A DNA stretch of 64,000 nucleotides from Acidaminococcus fermentans DSM 20731 (GTDB lineage Bacteria > Bacillota > Negativicutes > Acidaminococcales > Acidaminococcaceae): assembly GCF_000025305.1 (NCBI RefSeq), contig NC_013740.1:2170001-2234000 (forward strand). The letters are read 5' to 3'. Every line of letters starts with the position of its first letter. Position 1 is the stretch's first letter. Under the pieces are notes generated by a model. That model worked only from the letters and a program-made list of their open reading frames with translations, did no database searches and was not told where the DNA came from. A program made the position numbers and the translations under genes. Below, piece after piece: positions 15,756-24,629 of this stretch.

Positions 15756-16638
15756 TTACAGGAACTGGAAAATAAAACTGCCCACCAGGAGGACAATGGC
15801 CCCGCCGATCCGGGAGGAAATCTGAGCGTAACTCATCAGGTCCATCCGTCTGCAGGCACCCAGCACGGCCATATCTCCTGCACCGCCCATGTTGGCCATG
15901 CACAGTCCGGCTGTAATGGCGCTTTCAATGGGATAGAAGCCCACCAGCGAACCAAAAGCTGCGGAACCGATGACACAGCCCAGGACAATCAGCAGCACCA
16001 TAATGAAATTGGCAACGCTCAGCACACCCATCATCTTGTTGAAATCGATCAGGGTGACACCGCATCCGGCCATCATGGCCCAGACCAGCCGGCTGGCGCA
16101 GAACTGCTGTACCCGGTGGCAGGCTTCCTTCGTTCGTTCCGGGATCAGGTCCAGCACATTGGCCAGGGTGGCAAATATGATCATGTAGGCAAAATTGGGA
16201 ATGGCCACTCCAAAGACCGTGGGCAGGACTTTTTTCGCCACCAGCTGGGCCAATACGAAGACTGGATTTCAGCAGGACCTTTCTTTCGATTCCCAACAGG
16301 CTTCCCACCACCTGGGCACAGATGAATACGTTCAAAAAATTGTAGGTATTCATCCATCCCTTGGAAACAGTCAGGATGTTTTTGGGCATCAGATTGTTGT
16401 ATACCAGAATCCCGCAGCCCAGGAACGCCAGCACGGCTCCGCCTCCGCAGTACTTGTTCCAAACAGGAAGCCGTTCTCCCACTTCACCGAAGATGGCACC
16501 CAGGATGAACATGACAGCGATGCCTCCAATGAACTGATTGGGAATGATGTTCAGGCAGGCAGAAATCAGAACGATTACAGAGAAAAACGTGAAAATCCGC
16601 CAGTCCATACCATAAAGCTTAAACGTGGTTTCTTTCAT
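15756..16638 (-). pseudogene. CitS-like 2-hydroxycarboxylate (2HCT) carrier, internally deleted and out of frame
   Basis: Two frames together encode the two ends of a 2HCT-family sodium:citrate/malate-type symporter. The first part starts at 16638 (MKETTFKLYGMDWRIF) and reads LNVFICAQVVGSLLGIERK to about 16250. The second part, in another frame, reads KKVLPTVFGVAIPNFAY to the stop at 15756 and keeps the C-terminal MGGAGDMAVL motif. The total is about 294 codons against roughly 430 for the family, and the first Gly-rich GGxG region is missing. One out-of-frame internal deletion of about 400 bp near 16250 would explain everything. A good AGGAGG site remains, so the remnant is still inside a transcribed operon. 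Confidence 0.75.
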
Positions 16639-16642
16639 GACC

Positions 16643-17536
16643 TTATGCCTCCTGTCCGGAATTGGAAAAGCCAAAAAGTTTTGCCGGATTTTCCACCAAC
16701 GTTTTATAAACCGTTTCTTCATCCTCTGCCATATCGAACAGAGCATCCAGCAACGCACTGTCATCGGGGCAGGGTTTCCGTTTGCTGTACCGGTTGGGAT
16801 GGGGCCAGTCCGTTCCCCACAGCAACCGGTTGGGATTGGCCTTGACGTATTCCCGGCCTATGGCCAGGGTGTCTCCATAAGTTTCCTCCCCACTGTCAAA
16901 ATACCAGCCGGAAAGTTTGACCCAGGCCCTTCCCTGATCCAGCCAGTCACAGATCATCCGGAATGCGGGATGACTGGTCCCTGTCCCTGCAGGCAGGTGT
17001 CCCCGATGGTCAAGGACCAGCTGTACAGGCAGATTCTCGAAAAATGTCCGTTTCTCCACCAGAAGATCCGGATCCATCCACAGACAGACACACCAGCCAT
17101 ATTCCGCAACCCGTTCCACCAGTCTGCGGATTTCTTCCCAATCGCCTTTATATCCGCAGTTCATGTTGAACCGGATGCCCCGTGCGCCTTTCCGGTGAAG
17201 GGCCGCCAGCTGGGAATCCATCACCTGGTTGTCCAATACCACAATGGCCCGGGTATTTTCCACACCCAGTCTCTGGACCGCATCCATGGTGCACCGGTTG
17301 TCCAGGCCATAAGCAGAAGGCTGCACCACCACACTTCGGGCAATGCCCAGTTTATCCTTCAGCAGACGGTAGCATTCCACGTCAGCCGGAGGTTGGTTTC
17401 TCACATCCCCCGGTACATAAGGGAACCGGACGGGATCATAGATGTGATGATGGCAGTCACAAGCTCCCAGCGGGATACGATTTCGGGGAAAAGTCTTCCC
17501 TCCGCAGTAAGGCACCTGCTCTCTCCGTTTTTCCAT
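16643..17536 (-). CDS. Amidohydrolase-2 family protein, LigI-like lactonase
   Basis: A 297-residue TIM-barrel hydrolase of the amidohydrolase-2 group (COG3618-like). The metal-binding CDCHHHIYDP motif is at about residues 26-35, with VLDHRGHLP in the middle and GTDWPHPN near residue 240. Relatives include 2-pyrone-4,6-dicarboxylate lactonase (LigI) and sugar-lactone hydrolases, which do not always need a metal. It heads an operon with the broken CitS-like gene, the PrpF-type isomerase and the aconitase-like hydratase, so a lactone or cyclic form of a tricarboxylic acid is a reasonable substrate. The start has GGGAGG upstream, and a shared operator-like motif lies at 17610. Confidence 0.7.
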   Translation of the reverse strand: MEKRREQVPYCGGKTFPRNRIPLGACDCHHHIYDPVRFPYVPGDVRNQPPADVECYRLLKDKLGIARSVVVQPSAYGLDNRCTMDAVQRLGVENTRAIVVLDNQVMDSQLAALHRKGARGIRFNMNCGYKGDWEEIRRLVERVAEYGWCVCLWMDPDLLVEKRTFFENLPVQLVLDHRGHLPAGTGTSHPAFRMICDWLDQGRAWVKLSGWYFDSGEETYGDTLAIGREYVKANPNRLLWGTDWPHPNRYSKRKPCPDDSALLDALFDMAEDEETVYKTLVENPAKLFGFSNSGQEA

Positions 17537-17821
17537 TTTTCCTCCCTCATTTCTTTCCGTTCAAAATCTTCCTTCTGTCAGGTATTACATTAAATGATTT
17601 TTCAAACAGTTTCCAATACTATTCCTCCCATAGGAGTTATATGATATTTTTTATGATTCATGGCAAGTTATATGTTTACTGTATGATTTTCCGGAGAACC
17701 AGCGGGCTCATCGTTGGTCGTCCATCCTTCATCGTTTTGGATGCCAAATGCCAGGCATTCGCCGTTGAACAACCCTCTGGGCGGCACTCTGCACTTGATT
17801 TCTGTCGTACAAATACAAAAA
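17537..17821. other. Intergenic region, mostly without recognised features
   Basis: About 285 bases with no convincing gene. It holds the operator-like motif at 17610-17646 and, from about 17690 to 17815, GC-richer sequence that translates on the minus strand into a short run lacking a start and any family I know. This may be a further gene remnant next to the deletion scar. Confidence 0.4.
17610..17646 (-). promoter_or_regulatory. Shared operator-like motif upstream of the amidohydrolase operon
   Basis: TTTCCAATACT (17610-17620), 5 bases, TCCCATAGGA (17626-17635), then an ATATGATAT-like tail. It is the second copy of the motif at 6671-6696. Confidence 0.6.
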
Positions 17822-17869
17822 AACACCAAAACTGTACCCCTTACCAGGTACGGTTCTGGTGTTTTTTTA
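17822..17869. terminator. Terminator-like hairpin
   Basis: ACACCAAAACTGTACC (17822-17837) pairs with GGTACGGTTCTGGTGT (17847-17862) with two imperfect pairs, followed by seven T. It ends plus-strand transcripts, and the A-rich left side would also serve the minus-strand permease remnant. Confidence 0.7.
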
Positions 17870-17885
17870 TAGCAGTACGGCTGTC

Positions 17886-18025
17886 TTACAGCCACAGGCT
17901 GGCGATGTAGGTGGCCAGCAGCCCTCCCAGGGACATGAAAACGTTGCCCAGGGACAGGGTTTTCAGCCCGGTCTTCATATCGAATCCCATGCAGTTGGTA
18001 TAGACCCAGAAAGCGGAGAATATAA
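17886..18025 (-). pseudogene. C-terminal remnant of a GntP-like permease
   Basis: The minus strand encodes FSAFWVYTNCMGFDMKTGLK and a last hydrophobic helix ending IASLWL before a TAA at 17886-17888. This resembles the C-terminus of gluconate-type (GntP) permeases. Nothing upstream continues the gene: the frame runs directly into a plus-strand GntR fragment at about 18010-18025. Only some 45 codons of roughly 440 remain. Confidence 0.55.
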
Positions 18026-18138
18026 ATCGGGTCAGGAGCTGAGCCTGACCGCCATTGCGGAACAGCTGGGCATCAGCCGCACCCCCGTACGGGAAGCCTT
18101 TCAGACCCTTGCCGCAGAAGGATTGATCACCCTCAGGA
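18006..18138 (+). pseudogene. N-terminal remnant of a GntR-family regulator
   Basis: The plus strand encodes GEYKSGQELSLTAIAEQLGI, then SRTPVREAFQTLAAEGLITL, the winged-helix core of a GntR/FadR-type regulator. It lacks a start codon with a ribosome binding site and any effector domain. At about 18130-18140 the sequence passes, in another frame, into the IlvD/Edd fragment. Confidence 0.65.
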
Positions 18139-18786
18139 AAGACCCTGGGAGCAAACCTGAAAGAGGTTTCTTTTGCTGACGGACCGGTGATCCATTCTCT
18201 GGATCATCCCAAAAAGCCAGAAGGAAGTATTGCCATCCTCTACGGCAATCTGGCTCCCAAAGGCGCTGTAGTGAAGAAAGCCGGAGTAAAGCCATCCATG
18301 TACCAGTTTACAGGGACTGCCCGGGTATTCAACTATATGGAAGATGCCTGCCGGGCCATCCAGGCAGGGGAGATCCCTGCCGGCACCGTCATCGTCCTGC
18401 GTTATGAAGGCCCCAAAGGAGGCCCCGGCATGCGGGAGCAGCACATGGTCACCTCCCTGCTGGTAGGCCGGGGCATGGATGAAAGCTGCGCTCTGATTAC
18501 CGATGGACGGTTCTCCGGTTCCACTCGCGGTCCCGCCATCGGACACATCTCTCCCGAAGCCGCTGCAGGGGGGCCCATTGCCGCTGTACAGGACGGAGAT
18601 ACCATTACCATAGACATTCCCGGGAGAAAGCTGACCCTGCATCTTACGGTCGAGGAAATCCAAAAACGGTTAACCCAGGTAAAGCTTCTCAAAAAAACGG
18701 CAACACCGGCGCTTCAGAAATATGCAGCACTGGTTACCAGTGCCGACCGGGGTGCCATTCTGGAAATTCCCGAATGCCTGAAATAA
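18130..18786 (+). pseudogene. C-terminal fragment of an IlvD/Edd-family dehydratase
   Basis: From GKTLGANL (about 18136) the frame encodes the C-terminal part of a dihydroxy-acid or sugar-acid dehydratase: SLDHPKKPEGSIAILYGNLA, then GRFSGSTRGPAIGHISPEA, ending at 18786. This is about 215 of the usual 550-570 residues; the catalytic iron-sulfur N-terminal region is gone. A GTG at 18187 could start a short protein, but it has no ribosome binding site and the product would be inactive. With the neighbouring GntR and GntP remnants it looks like a lost sugar-acid utilisation locus. Confidence 0.75.
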
Positions 18787-19449: not shown

Positions 19450-20592
19450 TTATCCGAAATCCGCCTGGCAGTATACGCACTTGCCCCCTTTAAACGTCAT
19501 CTGGGGCACCAGCACCTGATGTCCCGTCATGGTATGGCCGTTGATATCACAATAGGGGACCTCTTTCTTTTTCAGTCGGAACAGCGCCACATCAGCGGTT
19601 GTACCTTCTTCCATGGTTCCCAGTTCCGGACGTCCGATCAGTCGGGCCGGGTTTCCAGTGGCACAGTCCAATACCTGTTCCAACGGCATCCCGAAATCCA
19701 GGTACTTGGACAAAACCCGGGGCAGGGAATGGAGAGGCTGCAGGAAAAAGCTGGAGGCATTGTTGTCCGAACTGATCACATCCGGGACGAATCCCTGTTC
19801 TACGGCCTTCCGAGCCACCTCCAAGTCAAAATTGCTCCGCCCGTTGGAGGCATCAAAGAGTACGCCTCTTTCCCTGGCTTTCCACAGTCCCGGCAGCACC
19901 TTCCCCTTTTCGTCCAGACAGGAATGATTTCCCCGGTTCTGGTAAATATGGCAGATCACATCTCCCGACCGCAGCATGGCAGCCACTTCATCCAGGGGCA
20001 GAGGACAATCCGTCACATGGACGATGACCCTTGTGCCTGCCTTTTCAGCAATCTCCACAGTCCGCTGCAAAGATTTCCGTGCCATTTCCGGGCCCAGGAT
20101 TCCCCGGGAAAGCCGCGTTTTAAGGCCCACCAGATTGTCTTCATACCGCTGAAAGAAATCCAGAATCTTTCTTTCATCAAAATACCGGGGATCCAGATTC
20201 TCCGGATACTGGTCATTGGACTGTCCGCCGGACGCCACCAGCAGATAGTTCAGGATCCTGACTTCTGCCATGGCCATAATGCTGGCTCTGTACAGTTCAT
20301 AATTTCCGGTGCCTGCACTCCCGCCGTCCACAGCAGTGGTGATCCCCATGCAGAAAGAGGCGGCATCCCCATTGACACCATTTTCACTGCCCCGGAAACA
20401 GTAATGGGTATGATAATCGATCAGACCCGGTGTCACCAGGCATCCAGATGCATCAATGATCTGCCTGTAACCGGCAGAGCCCGCATTTACCGCGGGATAA
20501 ACGATTTTCCCTTCCACCAGGGCCACATCTTTCCTGATCAGCCGATGGGCTGCCGGATCATAGAGCAGTCCATTCCTGATTAAAAAATCCAT
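19450..20592 (-). CDS. Amidohydrolase/deacetylase-family metal-dependent hydrolase
   Basis: A 380-residue amidohydrolase-superfamily enzyme. It opens with MDFLIRNGLLYDP, followed by GLIDYHTHYCFRG (metal site, about residues 56-68), a region with VIVHVTDCP and CHIYQNRGNHS, and SSDNNASS carrying the catalytic aspartate. It resembles the deacetylase/dihydroorotase-like branch acting on cyclic amides or N-acyl compounds. The ATG at 20592 is preferred because the in-frame GTG at 20601 lies only three bases from GAAAGGA. It follows the TRAP genes across a hairpin, so it probably acts on the TRAP substrate. Confidence 0.65.
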   Translation of the reverse strand: MDFLIRNGLLYDPAAHRLIRKDVALVEGKIVYPAVNAGSAGYRQIIDASGCLVTPGLIDYHTHYCFRGSENGVNGDAASFCMGITTAVDGGSAGTGNYELYRASIMAMAEVRILNYLLVASGGQSNDQYPENLDPRYFDERKILDFFQRYEDNLVGLKTRLSRGILGPEMARKSLQRTVEIAEKAGTRVIVHVTDCPLPLDEVAAMLRSGDVICHIYQNRGNHSCLDEKGKVLPGLWKARERGVLFDASNGRSNFDLEVARKAVEQGFVPDVISSDNNASSFFLQPLHSLPRVLSKYLDFGMPLEQVLDCATGNPARLIGRPELGTMEEGTTADVALFRLKKKEVPYCDINGHTMTGHQVLVPQMTFKGGKCVYCQADFG

Positions 20593-20609
20593 ATTCAGCA
20601 CGTCCTTTC

Positions 20610-20645
20610 AAAAGACCCGGCAGAAAATGTCCTGCCGGGTCTTTT
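20610..20645 (-). terminator. Hairpin between the TRAP gene and the amidohydrolase gene
   Basis: AAAAGACCCGGCAG (20610-20623) pairs perfectly with CTGCCGGGTCTTTT (20632-20645). The short TCTTTT run on the minus strand suggests a partial terminator that lowers expression of the downstream amidohydrolase. Confidence 0.7.
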
Positions 20646-20648
20646 CTT

Positions 20649-22985
20649 TTATTTTCCGTTTTTTCTGGCCTGGTCGATGGCCTGGAGCAACTGATCCACG
20701 ATTTCACTGCCCTGATCTTTTCTGACCATGTCATAAACCACTTTGCCCTTGTCCCGCAGCTGGGCAATGACCTGAGGATCCAGAGCGACGATTTCGCATC
20801 CCGCATCGATGCAGGTCTGTTTGTATTTCTGGATGCTCTTGTCCGCCCGCCGGTTGCCGTAGGCTGTAGCAGCTGCAGCACATTCATCCACCAGTTTCCG
20901 CACATTGTCCGGCAGAGAATTGTACACGTCCTTGTTCATAAAGAAGGTAATGATGTGCCCCACATGGTTGGTTTCCACCACATACTTCTGCACTTCCTGC
21001 ACATTGTTCCCCACGATGTTCATATAGGGATTTTCTTCCCCGTCAATGGTCCCCTGCTGCAGGCCCATGAACACTTCCGTAAACTGCATGGGAGTTGCCG
21101 CAGCTCCCAGAGAATTCCAGTAGGCGATATGATACTTGTTGGTCATCACCCGGATTTTCTGACCCTGGAGATCTTCCAGTTTCGTCACTTTTTTGTTGGT
21201 GGTCAGTTCCCGGAAACCGGCGTCCGAATAACCCAGCATCTGGATGCCGCCGGCGTTGCAGTACTGATTCATGACCTTGACAAAAGGCCCATTCAGCACG
21301 GCCCGCATCTGTCCTACATTGTCAAACAGGTTGGGCATATCAAAGACCGCATACTGAGGAATGAAGTCCACCAGGTCCGTAGTCATGCCGGTACCGATTT
21401 CAATGGAGCCGCTGACCACGGCTTCGGTAAATTCCGTGGTGTTCCCCAGCTGTCCGCCGGGATACAGGTCCACCGTAATCTTTCCGCCGGATTTTTGTTT
21501 CAGCAGATGGGCGAATTCTGCGACCATCTGGTAGTTGATGGACGAATCCGCCACGGTCATGGCCGCCCGCCAATGGTATTCTCCCGGAATCTCACTGGGA
21601 TCCAGCGGCTGGATATTTTTGCCGAATTCGTCAGCATCCGCATCCAGCGCCGTACTGATATTGGAGGCCACCTTGGCCTTTTCTTTGGAAAGTGCGCTGA
21701 CCAGACCCATGGAAATGCCGGGGATGTTGGTGATCAGCATCAGGGACAGCAGGAATGTAGCCAGGAAAGGAACCGTGGCCCGGGCCAGTTTCAGCATGGG
21801 GATCTTGGTCATCCCGGATGCCACAAACAGGTTGATGCCCATGGGCGGAGTCACCATGCCAATGGCCAGGTTGCAGGTCATGATGATCCCGAAATGGATG
21901 GGGTCCATGCCCAGTGCTGTAGCTACCGGCACCATAATGGGCGTCAGGATCATGATGTTGGGAATGTTGTCGATGAACATGCCGCAAATCAGCATAATAA
22001 CGTTCATGATCAGCAGCACCACATACTTGTTGGCGGACATTGCCAGCACCGCCGTACTGATGGTCTGGGGATACCGGAGCAGGGTGATGACCTTGGCAAA
22101 AGCCGCTGCTGCCGCAATCACAAAGAGGATGTTCACATAGGTCTTGGCCCCTTCCATGAACACCTTCCCCAGGTCCTGGAACTTCAGGGTCCTGTAGACG
22201 AACAGGCAGATGAACAGCCCATAGAACACGCTGATTACTGCTGCTTCCGTAGGACTGCAGATACCGGAATAGATGGTCCCCAGAATGATGACCGGAGTCA
22301 TCAGGGCAAAGAAGCTTTCCCGGAACAGTTTCCACAGCCCCTGTTCATGGAGTTTCTGATAGCTGGCGTTGAGCTTTTCCTTGTCCTCCCCATGCTTTTT
22401 GCAGTAGATCCAGCAGTATCCCATCAGAGAAACCCCGATCAGGACGCCGGGAATGATGCCGGCAATGAACAGCTTGGAAGGCGAACAGTTGGCCGTGGAG
22501 GCATACACGATGTAGGAAATGCTGGGCGGAATAATGACCCCCAGCCCCCCGGCCACCGTTACGATGGAGGTAGCAAAGATTTTTTCATACCCCATGGAAA
22601 CCAGGAAAGGAATGGTCATGGCCCCTACGGCAGAAACCGTCGCCGGAGAAGAACCGGAAATGGCTGCGTAGAACATGCAGGTTGCCACCACCGCACAGGG
22701 GAACCCGGCCGTCTTGTTGCCAATGAAATAGCCAAAGAAGTTGAACAGCTTTTTGGAAATCCCGCCCTGGGCCATGATCATCCCGGAAACCATGAACATG
22801 GGAACGGCCAGCAGAGTAAAACTGTTGAGCCCGGAAAACATGGCCCGGGCCACGTCACTGATGCCAAAGGTAAAATGGCTGTTCAGCAGATTGGGAGCCG
22901 CTGACAGCAGGGCAAACACCCCGCCCACCGGCAGTGCCACAAAAAGGAGGAGACCCAGCAGTGCAAAAAAGAATCCGATATTCAT
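20649..22985 (-). CDS. TRAP transporter large permease (DctM) fused to its substrate-binding protein (DctP)
   Basis: A single 778-residue frame. Residues 1 to about 430 are a complete DctM: it starts MNIGFFFALLGLLLF, has AISGSSPATVSAVGAMTIPF and PPSISYIVYAS, and ends in the last helix LLSLMLITNIPGISMGLV. After a polar linker of about 35 residues (SKEKAKVASNISTALDADAD...) comes a DctP domain of about 310 residues with VDLYPGGQLGNTTEF, QKIRVM and MGLQQGTIDGEENPY. DctP normally is a separate exported protein; no signal peptide remains here. The fused domain must reach the periplasm if it works. The start overlaps the DctQ stop (ATGA). The cargo is probably a carboxylate. Confidence 0.85.
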   Translation of the reverse strand: MNIGFFFALLGLLLFVALPVGGVFALLSAAPNLLNSHFTFGISDVARAMFSGLNSFTLLAVPMFMVSGMIMAQGGISKKLFNFFGYFIGNKTAGFPCAVVATCMFYAAISGSSPATVSAVGAMTIPFLVSMGYEKIFATSIVTVAGGLGVIIPPSISYIVYASTANCSPSKLFIAGIIPGVLIGVSLMGYCWIYCKKHGEDKEKLNASYQKLHEQGLWKLFRESFFALMTPVIILGTIYSGICSPTEAAVISVFYGLFICLFVYRTLKFQDLGKVFMEGAKTYVNILFVIAAAAAFAKVITLLRYPQTISTAVLAMSANKYVVLLIMNVIMLICGMFIDNIPNIMILTPIMVPVATALGMDPIHFGIIMTCNLAIGMVTPPMGINLFVASGMTKIPMLKLARATVPFLATFLLSLMLITNIPGISMGLVSALSKEKAKVASNISTALDADADEFGKNIQPLDPSEIPGEYHWRAAMTVADSSINYQMVAEFAHLLKQKSGGKITVDLYPGGQLGNTTEFTEAVVSGSIEIGTGMTTDLVDFIPQYAVFDMPNLFDNVGQMRAVLNGPFVKVMNQYCNAGGIQMLGYSDAGFRELTTNKKVTKLEDLQGQKIRVMTNKYHIAYWNSLGAAATPMQFTEVFMGLQQGTIDGEENPYMNIVGNNVQEVQKYVVETNHVGHIITFFMNKDVYNSLPDNVRKLVDECAAAATAYGNRRADKSIQKYKQTCIDAGCEIVALDPQVIAQLRDKGKVVYDMVRKDQGSEIVDQLLQAIDQARKNGK

Positions 22986-23512
22986 TCTTTTTCCGCCCCC
23001 CTTCCCTTTTCCAGATCATTGCCGTTGTCCGCTTCCAGATTCACTTTTCCCTGGAAGACCCGGACCATCAGCTGTGCATACCGGAAGATTCCCAACAGGA
23101 TTCCAAAAGCCATAATCCGGTAAATATCCGCTACCGGAATGGCCAGAGCCGGACTGGCCTGATGGATCAAATCCGCTTTCTGAATCAGTTCCTGAGTGCC
23201 TTTGAACAGATAAGCCAAAAGAAGGATCATCACTCCGTCACAAACAAGTCCCAGGGTTTTCTGCAGACTCTCCGGCATCATAGTGGTAAAGGTATCCACC
23301 TTGATGCTCACCCCGTGGCGTACCGCACAGGGCAGGCAGTAAAAAGCCGACAGAGCCAGCAGATAACAGCATATTTCATCCGACCAGGTCAGCGCATGAT
23401 GAAAACCGTACCGCATGATTACATTGGCAAAGGACAGGCAGCACATCACAGCCAGCATAATGGCCAGGATGAGCAGTTCCAGATTTTTATCAAACCATTT
23501 GACCAGTTTCAT
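22982..23512 (-). CDS. TRAP transporter small permease (DctQ)
   Basis: A 176-residue protein with four hydrophobic segments and the DctQ signature ALTWSDEICCYLLALSAFYC followed by VRHGVSIKVD. It is the small membrane subunit that pairs with DctM. Its gene is first in the operon and overlaps the DctM-DctP fusion by four bases. It is divergent from the LysR gene at 23658, the likely regulator. The charged tail (NLEADNGNDLEKGRGAEKE) is cytoplasmic in the family's usual topology. Confidence 0.85.
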   Translation of the reverse strand: MKLVKWFDKNLELLILAIMLAVMCCLSFANVIMRYGFHHALTWSDEICCYLLALSAFYCLPCAVRHGVSIKVDTFTTMMPESLQKTLGLVCDGVMILLLAYLFKGTQELIQKADLIHQASPALAIPVADIYRIMAFGILLGIFRYAQLMVRVFQGKVNLEADNGNDLEKGRGAEKE

Positions 23513-23636: not shown

Positions 23637-23657
23637 AGAATGGAAAGGGGCCACATC

Positions 23658-24629
23658 ATGGATATCCAGGTTCTGGAATATATCGTAACCATCGCCGACT
23701 GCGGCAGCATCTCCAGGGCTGCTCAGAAACTGTTCATCACCCAGTCCGGACTGAACCAGCAGCTGATCAAACTGGAAAACAGGCTGGGCATCAAAATCTT
23801 TGAGCGGGACAATCATCATCTGGAAATCACCCCCGCCGGCCAGCTGATTGTGGACAGCGCCACGGAAATCCTCCGGATCCGCCGGAACACCCTGACCCAG
23901 CTCAGTGATCTTCAATCCAGCATCAGCGGCCTGATTTCCCTGGGACTGACCCATGAGCACGGCATCGATGTGTTTACTGCCATTTATCAGCAGTTCCATC
24001 AGCGTTACCCCCATATCAACTTTTCCCTGAAAGAAAAAATCGTGGCGGACCAGTACCAGATGCTGGGCCGGGGCTCTCTGGACCTGGGCATTGTCCTGAT
24101 CAAGAAACTTCCCGCCGAGATCCAGCGCACCCTGATCCGGGAAGATCTGTATCAGGAAGATCTGCTGCTGGGGATTCCTTTGTCCCACCCCCTGGCCTCC
24201 CGGGCGGTTCCTCTCAGTGCAGGGAAACCTCTCCGAGTCATTGATCTGCACCTTTTCAAAGATGACCCGTTTGCCCTGATTTTCAAGTCTTCCACCATGC
24301 GGCAGGACGTCATTGATCCCTTATTCGAAAAGAGTAGATTCTATCCCCATATCATGCTGGAAACTGCCATGAACAACGCCCTGGCCACCCTGGTCAGCCG
24401 TGGCTTCTGCTGTACCATTCTGCCCCATTCCCGGGTCCTGGCCAGCAGTCACCAGGACGAGTGTGCCTGGTTCCGCCTGCTGGAAAATCCCACCTGGTCC
24501 GTTTCCGTAGTCCGACGGAAGGATTACCGGCTGGGCGAAGCCACCCGATATCTGCTGGAACTGGCGAAACAGTACGGCCGCTCTATGGAAGAACAGTTTT
24601 CCTGTCACAGTCCCGGATACAACCGCTAA
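23658..24629 (+). CDS. LysR-family transcriptional regulator
   Basis: A 323-residue LysR regulator with the helix-turn-helix in the first 60 residues (MDIQVLEYIVTIADCGSISR, then AAQKLFITQSGLNQQLIKL) and the effector-binding domain from about residue 90. The ATG at 23658 lies seven bases after AAAGGGG; the ORF from 23640 starts six codons earlier without a site. It is divergent from dctQ-dctMP, its probable target, and convergent with the DUF1667/FAD oxidoreductase genes behind a strong bidirectional terminator. The effector is unknown. Confidence 0.85.
   Translation: MDIQVLEYIVTIADCGSISRAAQKLFITQSGLNQQLIKLENRLGIKIFERDNHHLEITPAGQLIVDSATEILRIRRNTLTQLSDLQSSISGLISLGLTHEHGIDVFTAIYQQFHQRYPHINFSLKEKIVADQYQMLGRGSLDLGIVLIKKLPAEIQRTLIREDLYQEDLLLGIPLSHPLASRAVPLSAGKPLRVIDLHLFKDDPFALIFKSSTMRQDVIDPLFEKSRFYPHIMLETAMNNALATLVSRGFCCTILPHSRVLASSHQDECAWFRLLENPTWSVSVVRRKDYRLGEATRYLLELAKQYGRSMEEQFSCHSPGYNR

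Follow-up and report, generated by a model that had tools for sequence, protein, structure and literature searches.

A TRAP transporter in which the permease and the substrate-binding protein are parts of one polypeptide chain is encoded in the window analyzed here, a stretch of 64,000 nucleotides of the Acidaminococcus fermentans DSM 20731 genome (NC_013740.1, positions 2,170,001 to 2,234,000). A single open frame of 778 codons, with an ATG start and no internal stop, specifies DctM followed by DctP (Table 1). The fusion is confirmed as real, full length and unusual, and the protein is very probably part of a functional DctPQM-type carboxylate importer, with DctP covalently tethered 1:1 to the outer end of DctM.

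Table 1. Features of the DctM-DctP fusion locus (window coordinates) and of second-family loci (locus:coordinates)
Feature	Coordinates	Strand	Basis and remarks
DctM-DctP fusion gene	20649..22985	-	778 aa; stop included
DctM domain, residues 9-423	21717..22961	-	Pfam PF06808, 340 bits; conserved ISGSSPATV and VTPPMGIN motifs
Last DctM transmembrane helix, residues 397-420	21726..21797	-	AlphaFold2 model; would lead outward by SiaM topology (PMC9971032)
Inter-domain stretch, residues 424-474	21564..21716	-	Native DctM tail, then polar leash
DctP domain, residues 475-754	20724..21563	-	Pfam PF03480, 256 bits, essentially full length; Arg is residue 612
DctQ gene, directly upstream of fusion	22982..23512	-	Pfam PF04290, 82 bits
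Metallo-dependent amidohydrolase gene, downstream, conserved with TRAP operon	19450..20601	-	NF009060, 581 bits; synteny
LysR-type regulator gene, divergent, conserved with operon	23640..24629	+	Profile match; synteny
Strong hairpin between fusion stop and amidohydrolase start	20610..20645	-	-27.4 kcal/mol, z -5.7 versus shuffles
Three-DctP TRAP chain	L106:3956-8380	+	Pfam
Three-DctP TRAP chain	L115:3971-8530	+	Pfam
LysE-type exporter gene	L099:7361-7951	-	Pfam
LysE-type exporter gene	L103:6351-6980	-	Sequence resemblance
LysE-type exporter gene	L106:2378-3061	+	Sequence resemblance
LysE-type exporter gene	L115:2296-2973	-	Sequence resemblance
LysE-type exporter gene	L037:4160-4765	+	Pfam

The first-pass annotation of this DNA had described one frame with a full DctM, a polar linker of about 35 residues and a full DctP without a signal peptide, and the profile and hydropathy analyses bear this out with a slightly longer linker. 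The PF06808 match spans positions 3-412 of 413, that is, an essentially full-length DctM. The DctM end of the fusion aligns with native DctM ends (for example, ...VPALSMALPNAIG-stop), and the DctP part resumes at the mature N-terminus of separate DctP proteins, so that the added leash comes to about 38-40 residues. The highest mean hydropathy over 17 residues of the linker is 0.26 (0.26-0.65 across Acidaminococcus, with no fused protein exceeding 0.9); ahead of separate DctP domains (n=83), the median is 2.2.

The stop of the DctQ gene and the start of the fusion share 4 bases (ATGA), and the operon has no DctP gene besides the DctP domain of the fusion. The downstream hydrolase resembles in sequence PDB entries named amidase and dihydroorotase, and its conservation beside the transporter suggests, as a reasonable guess and no more, that the substrate is a carboxylate whose amide or ester bond would be hydrolysed after uptake. 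The hairpin ahead of the hydrolase gene, to which a pattern scan assigns a T tail on the + strand, is a possible terminator or attenuator and may lower amidohydrolase expression. Elsewhere near the fusion locus, the window contains apparent gene remnants (15925-18786), namely, an incomplete match to a 2HCT transporter (15925-16764), a short piece of the GntR HTH type (17859-18179), and a C-terminal-only IlvD piece (18187-18786). At two other loci of the genome, the IlvD piece is matched by frames 580-586 codons long.

The order LysR (divergent), DctQ, DctM, DctP, amidohydrolase is kept in all five Acidaminococcus loci, and the same order, with unfused genes, is found in contigs assigned to Candidatus Enterocloster excrementipullorum (L065), Synergistaceae (L069 and L070) and a Clostridia bin (L072), and is kept more loosely in further contigs. 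The unfused orthologues are up to 78% (DctM) and 75% (DctP) identical to the fusion, and their DctP is a separate gene immediately downstream of DctM and bears a lipoprotein or secretory signal of its own. The DctM and DctP trees agree, and in both, the fused Acidaminococcus clade nests among unfused rows. Because the same operon is unfused in other gut bacteria, the Acidaminococcus-type fusion arose in the Acidaminococcus lineage, and because the DctM tail ends approximately at the unfused end and DctP resumes at the mature start, the event itself can be reconstructed as the loss of a stop codon and of the signal peptide, with the mature DctP kept. A putative divergent fusion with an internal TAG (L011) was rejected, being instead a separate DctM and a lipoprotein DctP in the same frame with one stop between them, and candidates L044 and L045 likewise proved to be separate genes. 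Shikimate dehydrogenase-like or 3-dehydroquinate dehydratase-like genes, recognized by sequence, flank related unfused DctQMP operons in L011, L044 and L046, a setting that suggests that transporters of that branch take up quinate or shikimate.

Further fusions were sought with one scan of genome contigs and with searches of the class, the phylum and one family, seeded from two fusion families. Members of the second of these families come from Lachnospiraceae (Blautia, Roseburia, Hespellia stercorisuis DSM 15480 and [Clostridium] aminophilum among them) and from a small number of Negativicutes (family code f20 and a Selenomonadaceae bin, L119); the first-pass annotation had proposed to look for the architecture in other Negativicutes. 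In the DctM tree (114 rows), three changes of state are needed to account for fused and unfused rows. A topology that places every fused row in a single clade is rejected (p-AU 1.9e-43), with the DctP tree in agreement, so the second fusion is independent and the DctM-DctP architecture, as judged from the trees, arose at least twice. Unfused loci inside the second group (L123, L125 and L165) may represent either re-separation or a further fusion. About 13 of the 299 sampled genomes of the one family searched carry an M-P or M-P-P frame; in that family, fusion is uncommon but not rare.

The tandem DctP forms of the second family are the most interesting part of these findings. Several chains contain two DctP domains and two contain three (L106, 1475 aa; L115, 1520 aa), and Pfam bears this out, with a single DctM match plus two or three to DctP in each chain; further tandem chains occur in L099, L108, L109, L112 and L152-L158 (Lachnospiraceae and related bins). 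The copies within one chain are 75-94% identical and are joined by short polar linkers in which hydropathy reveals no signal-like segments. An AlphaFold2 model of the two-DctP chain L099, built from 14 rows, had a mean pLDDT of 63.5 and was set aside. In Synergistaceae, DctM of L070 is followed by a pair of neighbouring, separate DctP genes (L070:5614-7576, +), an unfused counterpart of the tandem form. In Blautia massiliensis GD8 (L098, L151), a frame change breaks the second DctP into a 967-aa frame and a separate 153-aa frame, which could reflect either a sequencing error or decay. A LysE-type exporter gene adjoins the second-family fusion operons in 5 of 5 loci inspected, identified by Pfam in L099 and L037 and by sequence resemblance in the others.

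The first-pass annotation maintained that the binding domain must lie outside the membrane and that this constrains the topology of the DctM C-terminus. The former is expected to hold, and the latter concern falls away: in a solved TRAP structure, that of SiaQM, both ends of the M subunit lie outside (N-out, C-out; PMC9971032), so a C-terminal DctP would find itself on the correct side without rearrangement, and the tethered domain is predicted to be external by default, no unusual topology being needed. The AlphaFold2 model of the fusion has a mean pLDDT of 87.9, dropping below 50 in linker residues 436-446; the DctM part matches the IseQM and SiaQM folds (9pym, 7qha), and the DctP part matches solved DctP proteins with an rmsd of about 2 Å. 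The output came without interdomain error and is thus silent on docking of DctP onto DctM. Arg612 is the equivalent of the carboxylate-binding SiaP R147, an arginine that is kept in 50 of 50 fused DctP domains, and in DctM, the ISGS-PATV and TPP-G-N positions likewise persist in the fused domains.

In the scenario that we favor, for which topology and the elevator mechanism are borrowed from homologues while the frame, domains, key residues, purifying selection, operon and evolutionary direction come from the comparisons reported here, DctQ and the DctM part would form an elevator transporter. The chain would emerge from the last DctM helix on the outer side of the membrane and run via the polar leash of some 40 residues into a Venus-flytrap DctP, which would capture the substrate, dock on its own DctM/DctQ and release it there, uptake being driven by a cation gradient. 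The fusion would have replaced a lipid-anchored (or secreted) DctP once encoded immediately 3' of DctM. The altered stoichiometry predicted by the first-pass annotation follows from the single chain, and the likely gain lies in a DctP that is locally concentrated and supplied at a fixed ratio of 1:1, inasmuch as the interaction of free binding protein with QM is weak: a KD of about 65 uM was measured for HiSiaP and HiSiaQM, and a different method gave an estimate of about 1 uM (PMC10942642). By a rough calculation in which the domain can roam a half-sphere 6 nm in radius, its concentration is about 3-4 mM; the tether would thus compensate for weak docking, its price being the loss of excess free DctP. 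Changed kinetics are plausible, and the observation that a longer linker slows transport in GlnPQ (PMC8025302) is consistent with such leashes serving in delivery. Transport by the fusion, with one chain serving itself to kinetic benefit, is what we infer; given that the unfused orthologues are lipid-anchored in several species, the fusion may also simply have swapped one anchor for another.

Could the frame itself be an artefact that conceals a stop and a new start with a signal peptide, which the first-pass annotation placed at about 21690? The same frame is open, without internal stops, in all 5 Acidaminococcus genomes that have the locus (the source and 4 others), and the inter-domain segment contains no signal-like stretch. 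What the other 4 Acidaminococcus genomes contain is limited to more distant relatives (about 40-45% identity); hence, every copy of the locus found in the genus is a fused one, and the absence from close relatives that would have spoken for an error is not observed. The five fusions are 82-97% identical in each part, and synonymous sites are near saturation in most pairs (pS up to about 0.88 in DctP), with pN of about 0.02-0.12 in DctM and DctP and dN/dS of 0.01-0.09 where computable, values that point to purifying selection on the fusion; the linker evolves faster than the domains (pN up to 0.22), yet stays in frame. Outside the genus, the otherwise matching operon has separate genes, which marks a lineage-specific fusion rather than an error. 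The source genome forms one contig (2,329,769 bases) and, according to the A. fermentans VR4 genome paper, was finished with three kinds of data, Sanger, 454 and Illumina; the paper counts five TRAP systems with 12 genes and, in the passages covered, mentions no fusion (PMC3035267). Recurrence in five genomes, together with purifying selection, excludes an artefact, and with the independent genomes refuting it, we assign this explanation a negligible probability.

Two other readings accept the frame and dispute the tether or its function. In one, the product is a polyprotein: one chain is translated, its last DctM helix takes the part of a signal sequence, and signal peptidase or another protease cuts the leash and frees a soluble DctP, much as in the cytochrome b-c1 precursor (FbcH) of Bradyrhizobium. 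The signal-like orientation of the last DctM helix and the Ala/Ser-rich stretches of the polar leash lend this idea some appeal, but the hydrophobic signal segment of separate DctP proteins is missing from the linker of every fused protein, the leash varies among species with no evident conserved cleavage motif, and the two or three DctP domains of the second family are strung together by short polar linkers lacking signal-like segments, so that we consider cleavage unlikely. The other reading holds that the fusion is degenerate or repurposed, its DctP no longer feeding the transporter and serving as a sensor or scaffold or persisting as a decay product. The truncated appearance of the nearby genes at 15.9-18.8 kb would be in keeping with decay; against it stand the low dN/dS in both domains, the retention of the binding arginine and the DctM motifs, the conservation of the operon and its regulator, and the lack of another DctP gene in the operon, all of which make this quite improbable.

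A functional importer with a tethered DctP bears on a more general question. TRAP transporters are strictly dependent on the binding protein, and supply ratio, local concentration and docking kinetics are hard to vary experimentally; with natural chains of 1, 2 and 3 DctP domains, and with matched unfused orthologues reaching about 78% identity, the question of stoichiometry and tethering becomes directly testable. The fusions also amount to a second way, besides lipidation, of holding a TRAP binding protein at the membrane, both in the Gram-negative-type Negativicutes and in their Gram-positive relatives.

The first-pass annotation considered the M-then-P order unusual, and indeed, the open papers searched (a scope that left aside older subscription reviews and domain-architecture databases) contain no description of DctM-DctP or tandem-DctP TRAP proteins. 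Among the top matches listed, plasmid-borne TRAPs match in two or three pieces, the annotated ones mostly as separate permease and binding-protein genes, a result that, with searches begun from two fusion families, is no proof of the absence of fusions elsewhere. Of the features of the DctP-type TRAP family (TC 2.A.56), a full-length DctM, a DctP with the carboxylate-binding Arg and a DctQ encoded alongside are all found here, and the usual separate, soluble or lipid-anchored DctP gives way to a single frame without a signal peptide; as the family's components and folds are all represented, the fusion seems best classified as a variant architecture of that family. The protein does not belong with the DctQM-fused TRAPs, DctQ being its own gene, nor with the TAXI-TRAPs, given that its binding domain is DctP (PF03480) and Q is separate.

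The separate-PQM systems, such as SiaPQM of Photobacterium profundum and Vibrio cholerae, share with the fusion the same three components and folds, the Q gene directly upstream and the binding Arg, but in those systems, DctP is not part of the DctM chain, has a signal peptide and is not fixed at 1:1. Q-M fusions make up a small proportion of TRAPs, and Q-P fusions are rarer still (PMC8276074); the QM-fused systems (HiSiaQM, IseQM and the TAXI-TRAPs) and the rare Q-P fusions likewise combine TRAP components in one chain, whereas here, DctP sits on the DctM C-terminus and DctQ is separate. The TAXI-GltS fusions described in Lachnospiraceae (PMC12344293) likewise belong to gut Firmicutes and link a binding protein covalently to a secondary transporter of the elevator type, but the permease is of the GltS family and the binding protein is TAXI, at the N-terminus. 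The ABC importers OpuA and GlnPQ (the latter with tandem domains; PMC8025302) similarly tether one or several binding domains to the permease, although they are ATP-driven and their permease is unrelated to DctM; moreover, the tandem domains of GlnPQ differ in specificity (PMC8025302), whereas the tandem DctP copies of one chain are 75-94% identical. On balance, we think it probable that the fusions constitute a distinct class of TRAP transporters in gut anaerobes, with permanently tethered DctP, at least two origins, and 1-3 DctP per permease, the number being set by the domain count, as in GlnPQ.
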